Below the pieces are notes generated by a model. That model was not told where the DNA came from. It ran no database searches and was given only the letters and a program-made list of their open reading frames with translations. From Streptomyces sp. ALI-76-A (lineage in GTDB: Bacteria > Actinomycetota > Actinomycetes > Streptomycetales > Streptomycetaceae): 64,000 bases of DNA. Shown piece by piece: positions 52,230-59,221 of this stretch. The stretch's first letter is position 1. Every line of letters starts with the position of its first letter. The DNA is taken from contig NZ_JASVWB010000002.1 of NCBI RefSeq assembly GCF_030287445.1, forward strand, positions 1,984,001 through 2,048,000, read 5' to 3'. Made by a program: the position numbers and the translations under genes.

Positions 52230-54965
52230 CTAGGGCATCTTGTCGCCCAGCAGCGCCAGGTTCTCGATGGCGGCGAGGCCGTACAGCGAGGTGTCGTTCG
52301 TGGACACCCAGGTGGCCTCGCTGCCCGGCACCAGCGCGGCCGGGCCGCTCAGCTTCTCCGTCCTCCAGGGGGCCGACTCCTTGTAGCCGTCGGAGTTGTA
52401 GAACTTGTCCCACGCCCGCTTGGCGAGCTTCTCGTCGCCGGTCTGCACGGCCGCGTACGCGTCGAGACGCGAGTGGCCCTGGAACAGCAGCAGGCTGCCG
52501 AAGTTGGAGCCGTAACGCGCGGCCTGTTCCGCCTTGGTGGCGTTGAAGTAGCGGCAGTAGTCGAAGTAGGCCTCGTTGAACTTCGGCATGTCGACGAGGT
52601 CGATGAGTTCGGCGCACAGCTCGTTGAGGCCGAAGACGGCGGACAGGTGCGAGACGCCCACCACCGGCTTGTCGGCGACGGCGAACCTGCCCGTGTCGAG
52701 GTCGTACAGGGCCGTGCCCTGCACGAAGCCGTTGGGCTGGGCGGCGATCGTCTCCATCGTCGACAGCACGCGCGCCTTGGCCTTCTCCCACTTGGGGCCC
52801 TTGCGCTCCCACTCCGTCAGCCAGGCCGACACCAGCCCGCTCCAGTCCGTGCCGAAGCCGATCGACAGGGCGTGCCGGTCGGGTGTGTACGGCTCGGTGC
52901 GGATCTTGCGGATCGGGTCGAGGACGAGGAAGGTCTCGTCGGAGTCGACGTTGGCGTGCATGAGGTCGCCGACCCGCTCGTCGGCGGTGAGGAAGTAGTA
53001 GTAGCGCCGGTAGGTGGTGTTGGCGATGCGCTGCTGCTTGGCGCTGTCGGCGTAGTGCTGCACGCCGTGCCGGGTGCCCAGCCCCGCCCACTGCCCCAGG
53101 TGGTACACGTCGACCTCACCGGTGTGCCGGGTCATCGCCTCGGCGAACCGGAAGATGTCCGCGCGCCCGGACCGCAGGTAGGCGAACCAGAGCCACAGGT
53201 CCGGCGACAGCTCCGAGTTGTCCCAGGCGTAGCCGCCGACGTCGTACCGCCACTGGTGCCGGACGGTGTCGTAGGTGTGCATGATGTCGCCGTAGTCCCA
53301 GAAGCCGTACCAACGGCGTTGCTCCACCTGGTCCTTGTAGTAGGTGAAGAGGAAGTCGAGGTGGTCCTCGATCTTCGCCTTGGCGGGCGTGGAGCGGTCC
53401 GGCTCGGAGTAGAGCCCCGGGCCGAAGACCCCGGCCTTGATGAGCTGCTTGGGCGGTGCGGCGAGCTGCGGCAGCACCCGTACGGCCTCGACCTGTTCGG
53501 CGAGCTGGTCGGCGCTCGGCGTCGACTCGTTGGCCCAGAAGAGGAGTTCGGAGGTGCGGGCGATGCCGTAGGGGGTGCCGAACCCGGGCTCGTAGTCCTC
53601 GTAGGTGATGTTGAGGCCTTCGAGCTGTTCGGCGAAGGTGTCCTGGCCCATGCCGTCGTGGTAGAAGCGCAGGTCCATGGGTTGCGCCTCGGGCGACCAG
53701 AGCCAGAGGGTCACCTCGGCCTCGTCGGTCTGGGCGTCGCGGATGTCGAGCTGGGCGGGGAACTTCTCCCAGAAGTCGCGCAGGCCGAAGGAGAGTCCGC
53801 CGCTCGCGCCGCCGACGTAGCCGAAGCCGGAGGCCCGCTTGCCGCCGCCGGCACCGATCCAGCCGTGGCCCTTCTTGGTGCGCTTGCGCAGGGTGAAACC
53901 GTCGGCGGAGAGCTGGGAGAGGGTGTAGTCGCCCCACTCGGGGATGTACTGAAGGCGGGTGGTGACCCGCTGGTCCCAGGTGGCCGGGTCGGGCAGCTTC
54001 CTGCCCTCGTACTGGGCCGTCTGGACGGCCGCGCCCGGGTCGCGGCGCAGTCCCGTGATGCCCTTGACGGCCTCGCGCAGCAGACCGGTGCCGTCGCCGC
54101 CGATGCGGATGTGGCGGTCGTAGGACTGGTCGCGCATCGGCACGGTGAAGCGGACGCCGAGGCCGCGGATGAAGTCGCCGCTCGCCTTGCCGGGCTCCTG
54201 CTTCCCGTCGAACGTGATGGTGTGCACCATGCGGAAGGAGTCGGCGCCCGCGTAGAAGTACAGCCGGATGGAGAAGGGCAGCCAGCTGCGGCTGCCCTTG
54301 CGGTGCTTGCCGTCGATGCGGACGACCGCGCGGACCGGGCCGTCCTGCTCGACCTCGACCTCCGCGATGGCCCCCTCGAAGCGCTCGGTCTTCACCGAGC
54401 CCTGGTCCTCGTCCTCGATCTCGGGCTGGCGGATCAGGACGAGCCGGCCGTTCCTGGCGATCTCCGTGGAGCCGCGGGTGACCGACTTGATCAGCGTGGC
54501 GCCGGACGTGCCGATCTTCGCGGTGATGACCCCGGTGGAGACGGTGATCGTGCCGCCGCTCCTGCCGACGGTGACCTTCTTGGCCGGGGCGGCGGCCTCA
54601 CCGGTGGTCAGGGTGAGCTTGCCGGAGCCCGAACTCACGGCGTGGGCGGTCCACTTGAGAGAGCCGTCCGGCCAGTAGGCGATCGGCCACGACTGCACGG
54701 GCACGGCCTTGCCGTCCGCGTCCGTCACCGCGAACTTCTGGTCCGTCCGGTGGACGCCCTTGGGCCAGGGCACGCCGACCGTGGAGCCGGGGGCGGCGCC
54801 GAGGCCGCCGTCCTCCAGCCAGTCCAGGGTCACGGAGCCGTCGTCGGCGTCCGCGGCTCTCGGCGCGGCCTGCGCGTCCTTGGCTCCGAGCGCCCAGCTG
54901 AACTGTGCGGCGGCTCCGGCGACGGCGGCTGCCTTGAGGAGGGACCTGCGGGGAATGGGAGACAT
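52230..54965 (-). CDS. Tat-exported YetA/PL26-like exo-rhamnogalacturonan lyase candidate
   Basis: A 911-aa secreted protein. PRRSLLKAAAVAGAAAQFSWALGA is a Tat signal peptide (twin Arg at residues 6-7). The mature N-terminus contains GVPWPKGVHRTDQ and AVPVQSWPIAYWPDGSLKWTAHA, the signature of the YetA/PcRGLX first domain as I recall it. A beta-sandwich middle part (about 170-400) is followed by a long alpha-helical, aromatic-rich C-terminal region (EQRRWYGFWDYGDIMHTY, YGFWDYGD, PYTPDRHALSIGFGTDWSGLV) like an alpha/alpha toroid. This family includes exo-rhamnogalacturonan lyases (PL26). Last gene of the sugar-transport operon. The specific substrate is inferred from the family and neighbours. 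Confidence 0.68.
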   Translation of the reverse strand: MSPIPRRSLLKAAAVAGAAAQFSWALGAKDAQAAPRAADADDGSVTLDWLEDGGLGAAPGSTVGVPWPKGVHRTDQKFAVTDADGKAVPVQSWPIAYWPDGSLKWTAHAVSSGSGKLTLTTGEAAAPAKKVTVGRSGGTITVSTGVITAKIGTSGATLIKSVTRGSTEIARNGRLVLIRQPEIEDEDQGSVKTERFEGAIAEVEVEQDGPVRAVVRIDGKHRKGSRSWLPFSIRLYFYAGADSFRMVHTITFDGKQEPGKASGDFIRGLGVRFTVPMRDQSYDRHIRIGGDGTGLLREAVKGITGLRRDPGAAVQTAQYEGRKLPDPATWDQRVTTRLQYIPEWGDYTLSQLSADGFTLRKRTKKGHGWIGAGGGKRASGFGYVGGASGGLSFGLRDFWEKFPAQLDIRDAQTDEAEVTLWLWSPEAQPMDLRFYHDGMGQDTFAEQLEGLNITYEDYEPGFGTPYGIARTSELLFWANESTPSADQLAEQVEAVRVLPQLAAPPKQLIKAGVFGPGLYSEPDRSTPAKAKIEDHLDFLFTYYKDQVEQRRWYGFWDYGDIMHTYDTVRHQWRYDVGGYAWDNSELSPDLWLWFAYLRSGRADIFRFAEAMTRHTGEVDVYHLGQWAGLGTRHGVQHYADSAKQQRIANTTYRRYYYFLTADERVGDLMHANVDSDETFLVLDPIRKIRTEPYTPDRHALSIGFGTDWSGLVSAWLTEWERKGPKWEKAKARVLSTMETIAAQPNGFVQGTALYDLDTGRFAVADKPVVGVSHLSAVFGLNELCAELIDLVDMPKFNEAYFDYCRYFNATKAEQAARYGSNFGSLLLFQGHSRLDAYAAVQTGDEKLAKRAWDKFYNSDGYKESAPWRTEKLSGPAALVPGSEATWVSTNDTSLYGLAAIENLALLGDKMP

Positions 54966-55071
54966 GAGAGCTTCAGCCTTTCCTTTCCGTGCGGGATGCG
55001 CGGGGTGGTCAGGGGCATGACAGGGAGAGGTGCGACGCCCGGGGCGCCGACCTGGTACGGGGGCACCGCCG

Positions 55072-55671
55072 TCAGCGGTGCCGGTGGCGCTCCTCCACGG
55101 CGACGGCCGCCGCCGCGACGGCACCCAGGACGGGGACCGCCAGCGGAGCGGCGAACAGGGCGGACAGGGCCACGACGGCCAGCCCGCAGACGACCAGGAA
55201 GGACCCGGCGGGATCGAGCACGGTACGGCGGCCGGCCTGCGCGAGCAGCACCCGCCAGACCGCGCCCGGTGTCCAGACGGCGGCCGCCCGCAGCAGGGCC
55301 ACGGCGAGACCGATCAGCGCGAAGACGCCGACGGCCCCCACGAACGGCCCACCGGGAAGCCCGGCGCGCGCGGCCAGGACATCCACCCAGACCGCGGCGG
55401 CCACCGCCCAGCCGGCGAGCCCGACCACCCACCCGCCGCGCACGGCCGTACGGAAGTCCGCGACGAACTCCCGCCAGCCGCCGCCCCCGTGGGCGGTACG
55501 CCGCCGCAGATGCCGGGCGCCGGCGGCGAAGGCGGCAGGGTAGGTGACGACCCCGAGACAGGCCACGGCGATCCACACACCGGTGAGCAGACACTCGGCG
55601 AAGACCGCGAAGCGCTCGCCGAAGACGGCCCTCGTGCGCGGTGCGCGGGCTTTCACGCGTGCTTGCGCCAT
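55072..55671 (-). CDS. YesL-like (DUF624) membrane protein
   Basis: A 199-aa membrane protein with five or six helices: FAECLLTGVWIAVACLGVVTYPAAFAAG near 24-50, VVGLAGWAVAAAVWVDVLA near 80, and three more in the second half, with the WREFVADFRTAVRGGW cytoplasmic loop near 67-82. This resembles the YesL/DUF624 family found with pectin and other plant-polysaccharide uptake operons in Bacillus. The ATG has GAGG eight bases upstream and follows the second permease by ten bases, so it belongs to the operon. Function unknown; its place supports a role in the sugar locus. Confidence 0.62.
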   Translation of the reverse strand: MAQARVKARAPRTRAVFGERFAVFAECLLTGVWIAVACLGVVTYPAAFAAGARHLRRRTAHGGGGWREFVADFRTAVRGGWVVGLAGWAVAAAVWVDVLAARAGLPGGPFVGAVGVFALIGLAVALLRAAAVWTPGAVWRVLLAQAGRRTVLDPAGSFLVVCGLAVVALSALFAAPLAVPVLGAVAAAAVAVEERHRHR

Positions 55672-55681
55672 GGTGACCGCC

Positions 55682-56557
55682 TCAGCCCTTGAGTCCGGAG
55701 GTCGCCATACCGTCGATGAGGTAGCGCTGGAAGGTCATGAAGAAGGCGATGACCGGTACCAGTGCCACCAGCGACATCGCGATCATGCTCCCGTAGTTGG
55801 AGATGCCCTCCTGGTCGCGGAACATCATCAGGCCGAGCGAGACGGTGTACTTCTCGGGGGTGTTGAGGTAGATCAACGGCCCCATGAAGTCGTTCCAGGC
55901 GTTGATGAAGGTGAAGATCGCGCTGGTGATGAGCGCGGGCCGGCTCAGCGGCAGCACGATCGACCAGTAGGTGCGCAGATGCCCGCAGCCGTCCAGCTTG
56001 GCGGCCTCGTCCAGCTCCCTGGGGAGCCCGCGCATGAACTGCACCATCAGGAACACGAAGAACGCTTCCGTGGCCAGGAACTTGCCCGCGACGAGCGGCA
56101 CCAGGGTGTCGGTGAGCTCGAGGTTGCGGAAGAGCACGTACTGCGGGATGAGCAGCACGTGGTACGGCAGCAGCAGCGTGCCGATCATCAGCGTGAAGAG
56201 CAGGTTCCGCCCGGCGAACCGGATCTTGGCGAAGGCGTACGCGGTCAGCGAGCTGGACAGCACGACACCGGCCACCGCGAGGACCGCGTACATCAGCGAG
56301 TTCCAGAAGAAACTGCTGATGGAGATGCCGGAGATGCCGTCGGCGAGCCCGGAGAAGTTCGCCCAGACCGGCTTGGTGGGCAGCAGGTCGAGGCTGGCGA
56401 TGATGTCCTTGCTCGGCTTGAACGAGGCACCGAGCACCCAGATCACGGGATACAGGACGACCGCGAGGACGGCGAGCGCGCCCACGTGCCAGGCGATCGA
56501 TCCGACGCGCCGCCGCTCGTTGGCGGTGTGCAGGGCGGGGCTGGTGGCACTGGTCAC
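55682..56557 (-). CDS. sugar ABC transporter permease 2 (MalG-like)
   Basis: Second membrane subunit of a carbohydrate importer, 291 aa. Six helices, with the EAA loop ELDEAAKLDGCGHLRTYWSIVLPLSRPALIT near residues 180-210. The last helices include SLVALVPVIAFFMTFQRYLIDG, and ends SGLKG as in MalG. GTG start overlaps the first permease's stop (GTGA). CUT1 family. Confidence 0.94.
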   Translation of the reverse strand: MTSATSPALHTANERRRVGSIAWHVGALAVLAVVLYPVIWVLGASFKPSKDIIASLDLLPTKPVWANFSGLADGISGISISSFFWNSLMYAVLAVAGVVLSSSLTAYAFAKIRFAGRNLLFTLMIGTLLLPYHVLLIPQYVLFRNLELTDTLVPLVAGKFLATEAFFVFLMVQFMRGLPRELDEAAKLDGCGHLRTYWSIVLPLSRPALITSAIFTFINAWNDFMGPLIYLNTPEKYTVSLGLMMFRDQEGISNYGSMIAMSLVALVPVIAFFMTFQRYLIDGMATSGLKG

Positions 56558-57510
56558 TTGGCGGCCTCCTCGTAGTGCACCCACTTCTTCTGCGACCAGA
56601 ACAGGACCGCCGTGACGAGCGCCACCGCGATCACCAGCGTCCAGGCCATCGCGGAGGCGAAGCCCATCTGGGCCTCCTTGAAGCCCTTCTGGTACAGGTA
56701 GCAGGTGTAGACGAGCGTGGCGTCGGCGGGCCCGCACCGGGTGTCGGAGACGACGTAGGCGGAGCCGAACACCTGGAACGCGTGGATGGACTCCAGCAGC
56801 ACGTTGAAGAACAGCACCGGGGAGATCATCGGCAGCGTGATGTTCCAGAACCGCCGCAGCGGACCGGCCCCGTCCACCTCGGCGGCCTCGTACAGCTCCT
56901 GCGGGACCTGCTTGAGGCCCGCCAGGAAGATGACCATCGGCGCGCCGAACTGCCAGATGCTCAGCGCCACCAGGGAGTAGAGGACGTAGTCCGGGTTGCC
57001 GATCCAGCCGCCCACGTCGAACCCGAAGATCTTCTGCGTACGGTCCACGACGGCGTCGTCCGAGAACAGCGCCCGCCACACGAAGCCGACGGAGACGCTG
57101 GCACCGATGAGCGAGGGCATGTAGAACGCGGCCCGGTACAGGCCCTGGCCGCGCCGCTTCTGCGCGAGCAGCAGCGCGACGCCGAGCGCGAGCAGCAGTT
57201 TCAGCGGTGTGGCCACGACGACGTACTTCAGCGTGACCTCGACCGACTTCTGCCAGCGCGGGTCCTGGAACATCGTCGTGAAGTTGTCCAGGCCCACCCA
57301 CCGGGGTGGCGTGAACAGGTTGTAGCTGGTGAACGCGTAGTACAGGGACGCGATCATCGGCCCCGCCGTGAGCAGCAGGAACCCCGCGATCCACGGCGAC
57401 ATGAAGAGATAGCCGGCGAGGTTCTCGCGGCGTCGCCCGCGCCGCCCGGCGGCGGGAGCGGCGGGCCGCTTCCCCGCCGGGCGCACGGGCGCTTCCTTGA
57501 CGAGCGTCAT
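56554..57510 (-). CDS. sugar ABC transporter permease 1 (MalF-like)
   Basis: First membrane subunit of the importer, 318 aa. A basic, Pro/Ala-rich N-terminus (residues 1-28) is followed by NLAGYLFMSPWIAGFLLLTAGPMIASLYYAFTSY and five more helices. The EAA loop is ELYEAAEVDGAGPLRRFWNITLPMISPV near residues 220-248. ATG start with GGGGA nine bases upstream. No ATPase gene is in the operon; CUT1 importers of this type in Streptomyces usually share the MsiK ATPase encoded elsewhere. Confidence 0.94.
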   Translation of the reverse strand: MTLVKEAPVRPAGKRPAAPAAGRRGRRRENLAGYLFMSPWIAGFLLLTAGPMIASLYYAFTSYNLFTPPRWVGLDNFTTMFQDPRWQKSVEVTLKYVVVATPLKLLLALGVALLLAQKRRGQGLYRAAFYMPSLIGASVSVGFVWRALFSDDAVVDRTQKIFGFDVGGWIGNPDYVLYSLVALSIWQFGAPMVIFLAGLKQVPQELYEAAEVDGAGPLRRFWNITLPMISPVLFFNVLLESIHAFQVFGSAYVVSDTRCGPADATLVYTCYLYQKGFKEAQMGFASAMAWTLVIAVALVTAVLFWSQKKWVHYEEAAK

Positions 57511-57524
57511 GGTGGTACGTCCCC

Positions 57525-58811
57525 TCAGCCCGCGAAGGCGGCCTTGGCCTCGCTGAACAGCGCCTTGGCGGCATCGGCCGGCTTGGTCTTGCCCTGGGCG
57601 ACCTCGCCGCCGATGCGCAGGAACGCGGCCTCGATGACGTCGGCGCCGGACGGGTGCGGGGTGATCTTGCCGAGGACGCCGGCCTTGGCGACCTCCTCCT
57701 CGTACGCCTTGACACCCTTGTTGTTGGGGTCGGTGGGGGTGAACGCGTCGTACTGCTCGGTGGTGGCGAGGATGCCGCGGTCGTAGCCCATGATCTTGCC
57801 GGCCTCGGGGTCGTGCACCATGAAGTCGATGAACTGGGCGACTTCCTTGGGGTGCTTGGTCCCGGAGAAGGCGCTCAGCATCAGCGAACCGAGGTACTGG
57901 CCCGTGTCCTTGCCGTCCGTGGTGGGGATGGGCGCGAGCCCGTAGTCCGACTCGCCCTCGCCCTCGTAGCGGATGGAGAAGTTGTCCCAGGTGAACTCGG
58001 ACGCCGCGAGGCCCGCCGAGAGCGCGGACTTGGGCTTGACCTGCTCGACCTTCTTCGGATCGGCGACCAGCCCGGACCGCACGCGCTTGTAGCCGTCCTC
58101 CCACCACTGGGTCAGGTCGTCCTCGGTGAAGCCGAGATCGCTGTCCGTGAAGAAGGCCTTGCCGTTCTGACGCAGGTACAGGTCGTAGAGGTACATGATG
58201 CTGAAGTAGCCGGTGTCACCGGCGATCTTCACCTTGTCCTGGATGGTCTGCAGCGCGTCGAAGTACTCGTCCCAGGTCCAGCCGAACTTCGCCTCGACGC
58301 CCGCCTTCTTGAAGGCCTTGAGGTCGATGACGAGCGCCATGGTGTTGGCGCCGACGGGTATGCCGATCTGCTTGCCGTCGACCTGACCGTTGGCCAGAAC
58401 GCCGTTGCGGAAGCCCTCCAGGCTCAGATTCCCGGCGTCCGCCTGCGTCTTGAGATCCAGGAGAACACCGCGCTTGTCGTACTTGCGCAGGAAGCCGACC
58501 GCATTCTGGAAAACATCCGGCGGATTCCCGCCGGAGGCCTGGGTCTGGAACTTCTCCCAGAACGCCTCGTAGTCGGTGAATTCAGGCTTGATCTTGATCT
58601 TCGGGTACTTCTTCTCGAAGAGCGCGATCGTCTTCTTGATGGCGATGGTGCGCGGTTCGCCACCCCACCACGCGTAACGGAGTGTGACCGTTCCGTCTCC
58701 GGATCCGCTGTCCCCGCCGCAAGCGGCCGTCGCGCCCAGGCCGACCGCGGCCGCCGAGGCCCCGGCCACCCTCAGGATCGTACGCCTCTCAACATTCCTG
58801 CTGGTTCCCAT
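57525..58811 (-). CDS. extracellular sugar-binding lipoprotein (CUT1 ABC importer)
   Basis: A 428-aa substrate-binding lipoprotein. The signal region ERRTILRVAGASAAAVGLGATAAC ends at lipobox Cys31 with a twin-arginine pair at residues 9-10, so export may use Tat. The mature part shows the SBP_bac_1 layout: VTLRYAWWGGEPRT near 40, GGNPPDVFQNAVGF near 93, GKQIGIPVGANTMALVIDLKAFKKAGV near 145. GGGGAGG lies nine bases before the ATG. First gene of the five-gene operon, behind the LacI-type operator sequences. The ligand is probably a pectin-derived oligosaccharide, judging by the lyase. Confidence 0.93.
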   Translation of the reverse strand: MGTSRNVERRTILRVAGASAAAVGLGATAACGGDSGSGDGTVTLRYAWWGGEPRTIAIKKTIALFEKKYPKIKIKPEFTDYEAFWEKFQTQASGGNPPDVFQNAVGFLRKYDKRGVLLDLKTQADAGNLSLEGFRNGVLANGQVDGKQIGIPVGANTMALVIDLKAFKKAGVEAKFGWTWDEYFDALQTIQDKVKIAGDTGYFSIMYLYDLYLRQNGKAFFTDSDLGFTEDDLTQWWEDGYKRVRSGLVADPKKVEQVKPKSALSAGLAASEFTWDNFSIRYEGEGESDYGLAPIPTTDGKDTGQYLGSLMLSAFSGTKHPKEVAQFIDFMVHDPEAGKIMGYDRGILATTEQYDAFTPTDPNNKGVKAYEEEVAKAGVLGKITPHPSGADVIEAAFLRIGGEVAQGKTKPADAAKALFSEAKAAFAG

Positions 58812-58847
58812 GTGGGCCCCCTCCCCGCAGCGTCATTGCCGTCTGCA

Positions 58848-58872
58848 TGAATCGTTTCAAGTAAGCGCTTGC
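58848..58872. promoter_or_regulatory. two LacI-type operator-like palindromes before the sugar operon
   Basis: TGAATCGTTTCA (58848-58859) and GTAAGCGCTTGC (58861-58872) both fit the LacI-family consensus AANCGNTT. The second has the perfect 8-base palindrome AAGCGCTT. Their centres are 13 bp apart, 37-62 bp before the sugar-binding protein start. A minus-strand TTGTGC or TTGAAA nearby could be a -35. A LacI-family repressor would have to be encoded outside this window. Confidence 0.66.
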
Positions 58873-59104
58873 TGGCACAAGCTACGAGGGGCCCCGGGGT
58901 GCGTCAATGATTCGGACAGGAATTTCTCCGGGACCGGGCAGGCGAGTTGACGGGCCGTCGGACCCGGCGCCCACCGGGAAGGGAGCGATGGCGCAGGTGA
59001 GGCGCCCGCGACCGACGGGCCGAACGGGAACCGGCCGCGGATCCCGGGCAGCGGTCGGCCGGAATTCGCCCCGTCTCCGGACCCGCCCCGCGGACCCGGA
59101 GACG

Positions 59105-59142: not shown

Positions 59143-59149
59143 ACCGGGG

Positions 59150-59221
59150 TGGGCGATACTGGGTTCGAACCAGTGACCTCTTCGGTGTGAACGAAGCGCT
59201 CTCCCACTGAGCTAATCGCCC
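59150..59221 (-). tRNA. tRNA-Val(CAC), second copy
   Basis: Same 72-base gene as 49172-49243, with identical stems, anticodon loop TTCACAC and discriminator A. Identity extends only two bases beyond each end (GG before, GG after on the plus strand), so it looks like a gene duplication rather than a longer repeat. Confidence 0.97.

Follow-up and report, generated by a model that had tools for sequence, protein, structure and literature searches.

A conserved Streptomyces operon with a PL26 lyase, a sugar importer and a two-operator promoter: a probable system for scavenging rhamnogalacturonan-I

A stretch of 64,000 nucleotides from the genome of Streptomyces sp. ALI-76-A (the window; the genome has 9,691,142 bases in 5 contigs and a completeness rating of 100%) contains a five-gene operon, 52230-58811, that encodes a polysaccharide lyase of family 26 (PL26) together with a sugar importer. 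All five are encoded on the minus strand (Table 1). Reading from the binding protein toward the PL26 gene, which is the last gene of the operon, they are separated by 14 bases, a 4-base overlap (GTGA, between the two permeases), 10 bases and 106 bases. The initial annotation of this DNA described five co-directional genes with overlaps or gaps under 110 bp, and the largest gap is indeed 106 bases. A scan for terminators gave nothing that exceeded shuffled sequences.

Table 1. Genes and promoter elements of the PL26 operon (window coordinates; those of genes include the stop codons)
Feature	Position	Strand	Evidence
Solute-binding lipoprotein, 428 amino acids	57525-58811	-	PF01547, 103 bits; PDB 5z6b (YesO), E 1.5e-47
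CUT1 sugar permease 1	56554-57510	-	PF00528, 53 bits
CUT1 sugar permease 2	55682-56557	-	PF00528, 76 bits
DUF624/YesL-like membrane protein, 199 amino acids	55072-55671	-	PF04854 in 4 of 17 orthologues; names of relatives
PL26 exo-rhamnogalacturonan lyase homologue, 911 amino acids, Tat-type signal	52230-54965	-	Pfam domains; PDB 5xq3
Operator 1, AGTAAGCGCTTGCT	58860-58873		CG-centred LacI-type palindrome; core as before pectin-lyase genes
Operator 2, TGAATCGTTTCA	58848-58859		CG-centred LacI-type palindrome; pattern as in the rhaI promoter
Probable -10 (TAGCTT)	58879-58884	-	Place and spacing conserved among relatives
Probable -35 (TTGACG), 17-nt spacer	58902-58907	-	Conserved among relatives

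The 911-residue protein is homologous over its whole length to PL26 exo-rhamnogalacturonan lyases. It had been proposed to be a YetA/PL26-like lyase, and all three of the corresponding Pfam families score above their cutoffs (PF21346, 613.9 bits; PF21345, 521.2; PF19501, 91.6), covering residues 44-910 with the full set of an N-terminal RIFT barrel, a central beta sandwich and a C-terminal alpha/alpha toroid. Membership in another lyase or hydrolase family is ruled out, as the Pfam search gave PL26 only. The sole match among solved proteins is the fungal enzyme PcRGLX (PDB 5xq3; E 9.4e-269, 897 bits, 868 aligned residues, residues 43-910). Tyr455 aligns with chain position 437, where 5xq3 has a Tyr that is replaced by Phe in 5xqo, and it is invariant across eight aligned Streptomyces PL26 proteins. 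From the mutant entry 5xqo, we infer that the residue equivalent to Tyr455 is catalytic. The motif QSWPIAYWPDGSLKWT is also found in the protein. A protein search returned 4,607 relatives among 7,995 scored sequences; PL26 domains are present in all 120 of the matches listed, and the source names of several relatives are "exo-rhamnogalacturonan lyase family protein." Of 150 Streptomyces genomes, 70 contain PF21346, as do nine of 296 genomes sampled across the phylum.

The initial annotation called this a Tat-exported, cell-surface lyase. The N-terminus has a twin-arginine (RR) motif and matches the twin-arginine translocation (Tat) family PF10518 slightly below its cutoff (20.7 bits versus 22.7), so Tat export is a reasonable reading. 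No lipobox or anchor is visible in the lyase sequence, and the cell-surface location is unsupported.

The other four genes appear to encode an importer and an associated membrane protein. The binding protein (PF01547), which has an RR motif and a lipobox-like TAAC, and the two permeases (both PF00528) make up a CUT1 set, as previously proposed; by Pfam, there is no ATPase among the five genes. The initial annotation put forward MsiK as a candidate for the shared ATPase. The closest solved relative of the binding protein is YesO of Bacillus subtilis, which is also the top solved match (E 8.2e-50) for a binding protein of a different type (type II; the types are described below) from another locus (L053). 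The window's binding protein also matches 2uvg and 2uvh, which we take to be an oligogalacturonide-binding protein, with E of ~1e-22; YesO scores 81 bits above 2uvg. The membrane protein had been labeled YesL/DUF624. It has no Pfam or NCBIfam match of its own (no PF04854 at E 1), but four of its 17 orthologues do reach PF04854 (DUF624; best E 2.1e-6), and "DUF624" or "YesL" is among the source names of its close relatives. By way of the orthologues, the protein is probably DUF624/YesL-like.

The operon is conserved across the genus. A scan of named genomes yielded 573 confirmed relatives, from which we took the best 80; 79 of these are labeled Streptomyces and one only "Actinobacteria bacterium." All five genes are present in order at 76 of these best 80 loci. 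(The exceptions are three short contigs and one locus that lacks a full match to permease 1.) Among 20 PL26 loci fetched from Streptomyces, 16 have the whole operon in order, and the remaining four are second copies that were chosen as such.

The importer varies more than the lyase does. In the 77 loci with a match to the binding protein, which are also the basis for the promoter counts below, the identity of the binding protein and permease 1 to those of the window falls into three types (17, 18, and 42 loci), while the lyase is 70-95% identical. These types, which we set by eye using identity thresholds, require three changes on the permease tree, 13 and 12 changes on the protein and DNA trees of the lyase, and 16 changes on a tree of threonyl-tRNA synthetase (ThrRS; 56 loci). 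(All trees are from FastTree.) Considering well-supported branches alone, five to 10 changes per type are forced on the two DNA trees and three to six on the protein tree. In eight compared loci (two of them of type I), the difference spans the three importer genes, at about 58.7-55.7 kb, and the promoter and the lyase are alike. The importer types are discordant with the lyase and ThrRS trees, and we interpret the pattern as an importer block (55682-58811) that has been replaced repeatedly at one place.

The surroundings of PL26 genes elsewhere also bear on the substrate. Second copies of PL26 are divergent to a PL4 rhamnogalacturonan endolyase in two loci (L043 and L052); in two others (L050 and L051), their neighbors include a LacI-like regulator and a GDSL esterase. 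The operon at L037 lies between an arabinofuranosidase (before) and a GH2 enzyme (after). Nonomuraea gerenzanensis (L278) has an independent operon with DUF624, a different importer family, a GDSL esterase, and PL26. A Pseudoalteromonas plasmid carries a GH88 gene after PL26, with an oligogalacturonate lyase and GH43 nearby, which is the usual set. (Of four PL26 regions examined from the plasmid collection, three had no annotation.) The PL26 paralogues beside PL4 lyases and the match to YesO both agree with the rhamnogalacturonan reading that was first given to this operon. As a separate observation, the start of the second-copy PL26 gene of L043 is overlapped by a DUF6250 gene with a weak match to a 3-keto-disaccharide hydrolase (L043:8875-12403).

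Upstream of the binding-protein gene are the two LacI-type palindromes that the initial annotation had noticed; they abut (58848-58873) and are conserved in relatives. Among the 77 named relatives, 76 have a promoter followed by CAAGCGCTT (TTGAC, 16-18 nt, T[A/T]NNN[T/C], CAAGCGCTT; this count is without a shuffle control). For the second element, the match to TGAAWCGWTTCA is perfect in 54 loci and has one mismatch in 16 (together 70 of 77) and two mismatches in five; in the remaining two, CAAGCGCTT is missing from the stretch that was read. Upstream, AAGCGCTT is present in any register in 75 of 77 loci, although in about 10 of these the site printed is one further upstream. A stricter sigma-70 scan detected no promoter at the operon. 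When we searched for the combined operator pattern with up to three mismatches, the window operon was the only match. Just upstream of the operon there is also a tRNA-Val (cac) gene (59148-59221).

Operator 2 appears to be linked to rhamnose. Within 378 kb of the organism's own sequence (4% of the genome), TGAAWCGWTTCA occurs three times with at most one mismatch: at the window operon, before rhaI (perfectly), and on the opposite side of the same rha intergenic region. Four Markov simulations of 378 kb gave 0, 0, 0, and 2 sites. For the four closest rhaI genes in the plasmid collection, a perfect TGAAWCGWTTCA lies 38-75 bp upstream of the match in three; none was found near the fourth, from Nonomuraea. 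Rhamnose catabolism genes are present in the genome (RhaI at 679 bits, cutoff 531, with an aldolase-dehydrogenase adjoining). The rha cluster ends with a LacI gene (L285:771-1796), whose product is a candidate regulator for the PL26 promoter. A LacI-like gene whose product has an identical recognition helix stands divergent to rhaI in Streptomyces sp. NBC_01237. A LacI-type RhaR of Actinomycetales is reported to control the rha genes and also the uptake of oligosaccharides, in several of these organisms by way of the ATP-binding cassette (ABC) importer rhiLFG (PMC3870299).

Operator 1 is shared with pectin genes. GCAAGCGCTTNCTNGA occurs perfectly at two places in the genome, the window operon and upstream of the single gene for a PL4 rhamnogalacturonan lyase, in a region common to a divergent GDSL gene. 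Near-perfect copies lie before a PL1-PL3 pair, a PL1 cluster (two sites), a GH115 gene, and two Gfo/Idh genes. (In both of the Gfo/Idh cases, the site is inside the 5' end of the called frame, ahead of the first family-matched residues.) A further case, on contig C4, is 460 bp before a called PL1 frame, in a region that was picked for PL1 and not for the site. Overall, a strong or near site accompanies three or four of the seven PL1 places, and three lack any. In one PL1 cluster (L192; C2, 2.458-2.478 Mb), which has four PL1 matches, we also observed a AAGCGCTTGC site near the start of one frame. Two intergenic GTAAGCGCTTGCGC sites elsewhere in this genome (L115 and L118) are beside genes with no link to pectin and possibly belong to another LacI-type regulator.

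One of the Gfo/Idh genes with operator 1 stands divergent to a LacI gene. This locus (L113:4032-8580; C2, ~3.488-3.493 Mb) encodes a Gfo/Idh/MocA dehydrogenase, a DUF993 protein, and an AP_endonuc_2-type TIM barrel, and its LacI gene (L113:7450-8580) is a candidate for the operator 1 regulator. The Gfo/Idh gene was found in all 30 Streptomyces genomes searched, eight of which have no match to PL26. The operator is present in 25 of the 27 loci where the start motif was found and absent in two; the other three of 30 were unreadable that way. Given its presence in genomes without PL26, we rejected the idea that the Gfo/Idh operon is tied specifically to PL26; it must serve something broader.

As operator 1 is shared with pectin genes and operator 2 with rhaI, we infer that the PL26 promoter is read by both pectin and rhamnose regulators and is under joint control. 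More broadly, we propose, with a probability of roughly 0.85, that this is a rhamnogalacturonan-I (RG-I) scavenging operon of streptomycetes with a two-operator promoter: a lyase acting outside the cell, an importer, and joint control. The Tat-exported PL26 lyase would cleave RG-I chains or fragments by beta-elimination, releasing unsaturated galacturonyl-rhamnose. Material would then flow inward: the YesO-like lipoprotein and the two CUT1 permeases would import the disaccharide, energized by an ATPase encoded elsewhere, with the DUF624 protein in a helper role. Transcription would start beside the two abutting operators, with operator 1 in common with the pectate-lyase, PL4, and Gfo/Idh-LacI genes and operator 2 in common with the rhamnose operon, so that full expression would require both a pectin signal and a rhamnose signal.

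Three sets of results weigh against this interpretation. First, operator 1 shows no genome-wide enrichment: there are 29 exact copies of GCAAGCGCTT, versus 34 for a reversed control, and 125 copies of a looser pattern, versus 137. Eight of the 29 copies (at seven loci) are linked to the window operon or to pectin, carbohydrate, or Gfo/Idh genes, and one more sits where a frame begins in a different PL1 cluster. The other 20 have no such link, and most of them are inside coding sequence or next to unrelated genes. More copies than predicted do lie near the eight places with PL1 (seven) or PL4: three are seen within 500 bp and 0.012 are predicted by chance (from 29 copies in 9.69 Mb, which ignores the differing composition of promoters).

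Second, the binding pocket appears to differ from that of YesO, whose structure contains a bound unsaturated galacturonate-rhamnose-galactose (PMC7596534). The window's binding protein is identical at only five of 21 ligand contacts (W20, R25, N127, N251, and S286). The 16 changes take in most of the galactose site as well as N254 to I and Q255 to R; alignment gaps leave the last third of this mapping uncertain. Of the four residues that the same paper calls highly conserved, R25, N127, and S286 are kept and N254 is I. The pocket thus seems to be preserved at its uronate end and changed elsewhere, and we propose, with moderate confidence, that the ligand is shorter than or different from that of YesO.

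Third, the expected next enzymes are absent. A search of the genome with PF07470 (GH88/GH105) gave no match (the same search was positive in B. subtilis), and there is no KduI, as the genome's single PF04962 match is IolB (TIGR04378, 286 bits, cutoff 205). This is odd for an importer of an unsaturated product. The initial annotation supposed that a GH105 step would be completed elsewhere in the genome; instead, the pathway appears to have no conventional completion elsewhere in the genome. Across 150 Streptomyces genomes, GH88/GH105 has a strong match (E < 1e-60) in 19 and a weak match in 12 more. Strong matches are present in 14 of the 68 genomes with more than a fragment of PL26, versus five of the 82 others (Fisher p 0.012). 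(The 68 exclude G008 and G117, which have PL26 fragments, and keep G101, which is partial, and G001, which is 79% complete; weak matches are counted separately.) If weak matches are included, 23 of the 68 have GH88/GH105; 54 have no strong match and 45 have none at all. Thus GH105 is commoner alongside PL26, yet most genomes with PL26 lack it.

We also offer a proposal that is rather improbable as it stands: streptomycetes would use unsaturated galacturonyl-rhamnose without GH105 or KduI, and the PL26 promoter would be a two-input gate that reads pectin and rhamnose separately. The best candidate for the route is the L113 operon, with operator 1 in common and a divergent LacI gene; it would perhaps cleave the glycosidic bond by an oxidation-elimination mechanism.

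We considered three alternative explanations. The first is that operators 1 and 2 form one extended site for a single LacI protein, or are catabolite-type sites, and that the likeness to pectin and rhamnose sites is partly chance. The palindromes do abut, and the lack of enrichment of operator-1-like 10-mers would be expected. However, operator 1 occurs without operator 2 before the PL1, PL4, and Gfo/Idh genes, operator 2 occurs before rhaI without AAGCGCTT, and the PL4 and C4 PL1 loci, which were chosen by family and not by site, bear operator 1. We consider this alternative unlikely, though by no means negligible. Second, the products of the lyase might be mainly lost or left for neighbors, with the importer taking another piece of pectin such as galacturonate oligomers. 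This would fit with the lack of known enzymes for the unsaturated unit and with the match to 2uvg/2uvh, but YesO is the better match by 81 bits and the importer is in a tight operon with PL26 in 76 of the best 80 named loci, so it is quite improbable. Finally, it is very improbable that PL26 acts on some other rhamnose-uronate polymer (e.g., bacterial or algal) whose imported product needs no GH105: the absence of GH88/GH105 and KduI and the mostly changed YesO contacts would be accounted for, but not the 897-bit similarity to a fungal exo-rhamnogalacturonan lyase with Tyr455 conserved, the PL26 paralogues that adjoin PL4, or the operator common to pectate-lyase and PL4 genes.

If the operon does scavenge RG-I, then a conserved streptomycete locus can be placed in pectin breakdown, with two candidate regulators and their sites named. 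There is also a gap: the lyase and importer persist throughout the genus, but the enzymes that textbooks place next are absent, which could reveal a new enzyme route for unsaturated uronates. And the swapping of importer types behind a constant lyase and promoter provides a handle on the evolution of substrate specificity.

We found no description of this operon in the literature (only open-licence PMC papers were searchable), but it resembles several known systems. In B. subtilis, YetA is cytoplasmic and LplD is a GH4 enzyme. As with yetA-lplABCD, PL26 is accompanied by an importer; one account groups yetA lplABCD as plant-related (PMC2885750). As with yesOPQR, there is a YesO-like binding protein and a probable association with a YesL/DUF624-like protein, and the ATPase would be encoded away from the importer (MsmX in B. 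subtilis; PMC5730181). Unlike B. subtilis, where the GH105 enzyme YesR acts on the unsaturated disaccharide (PMC7596534), the window's genome has no match to GH88/GH105. The LacI gene by the rha cluster is as in the RhaR regulon of Actinomycetales, although the available passages of that account (PMC3870299) mention neither a PL26 operon nor a second operator. Like PcRGLX of Penicillium chrysogenum, the lyase has three domains over 868 residues and a Tyr at the position changed in 5xqo, but PcRGLX is a single fungal enzyme and the window's lyase is a member of a bacterial importer operon. The general kind of system is known, and the operon appears to be a variant in which the promoter has two operators, importers have been exchanged, and known enzymes for the unsaturated product are missing.

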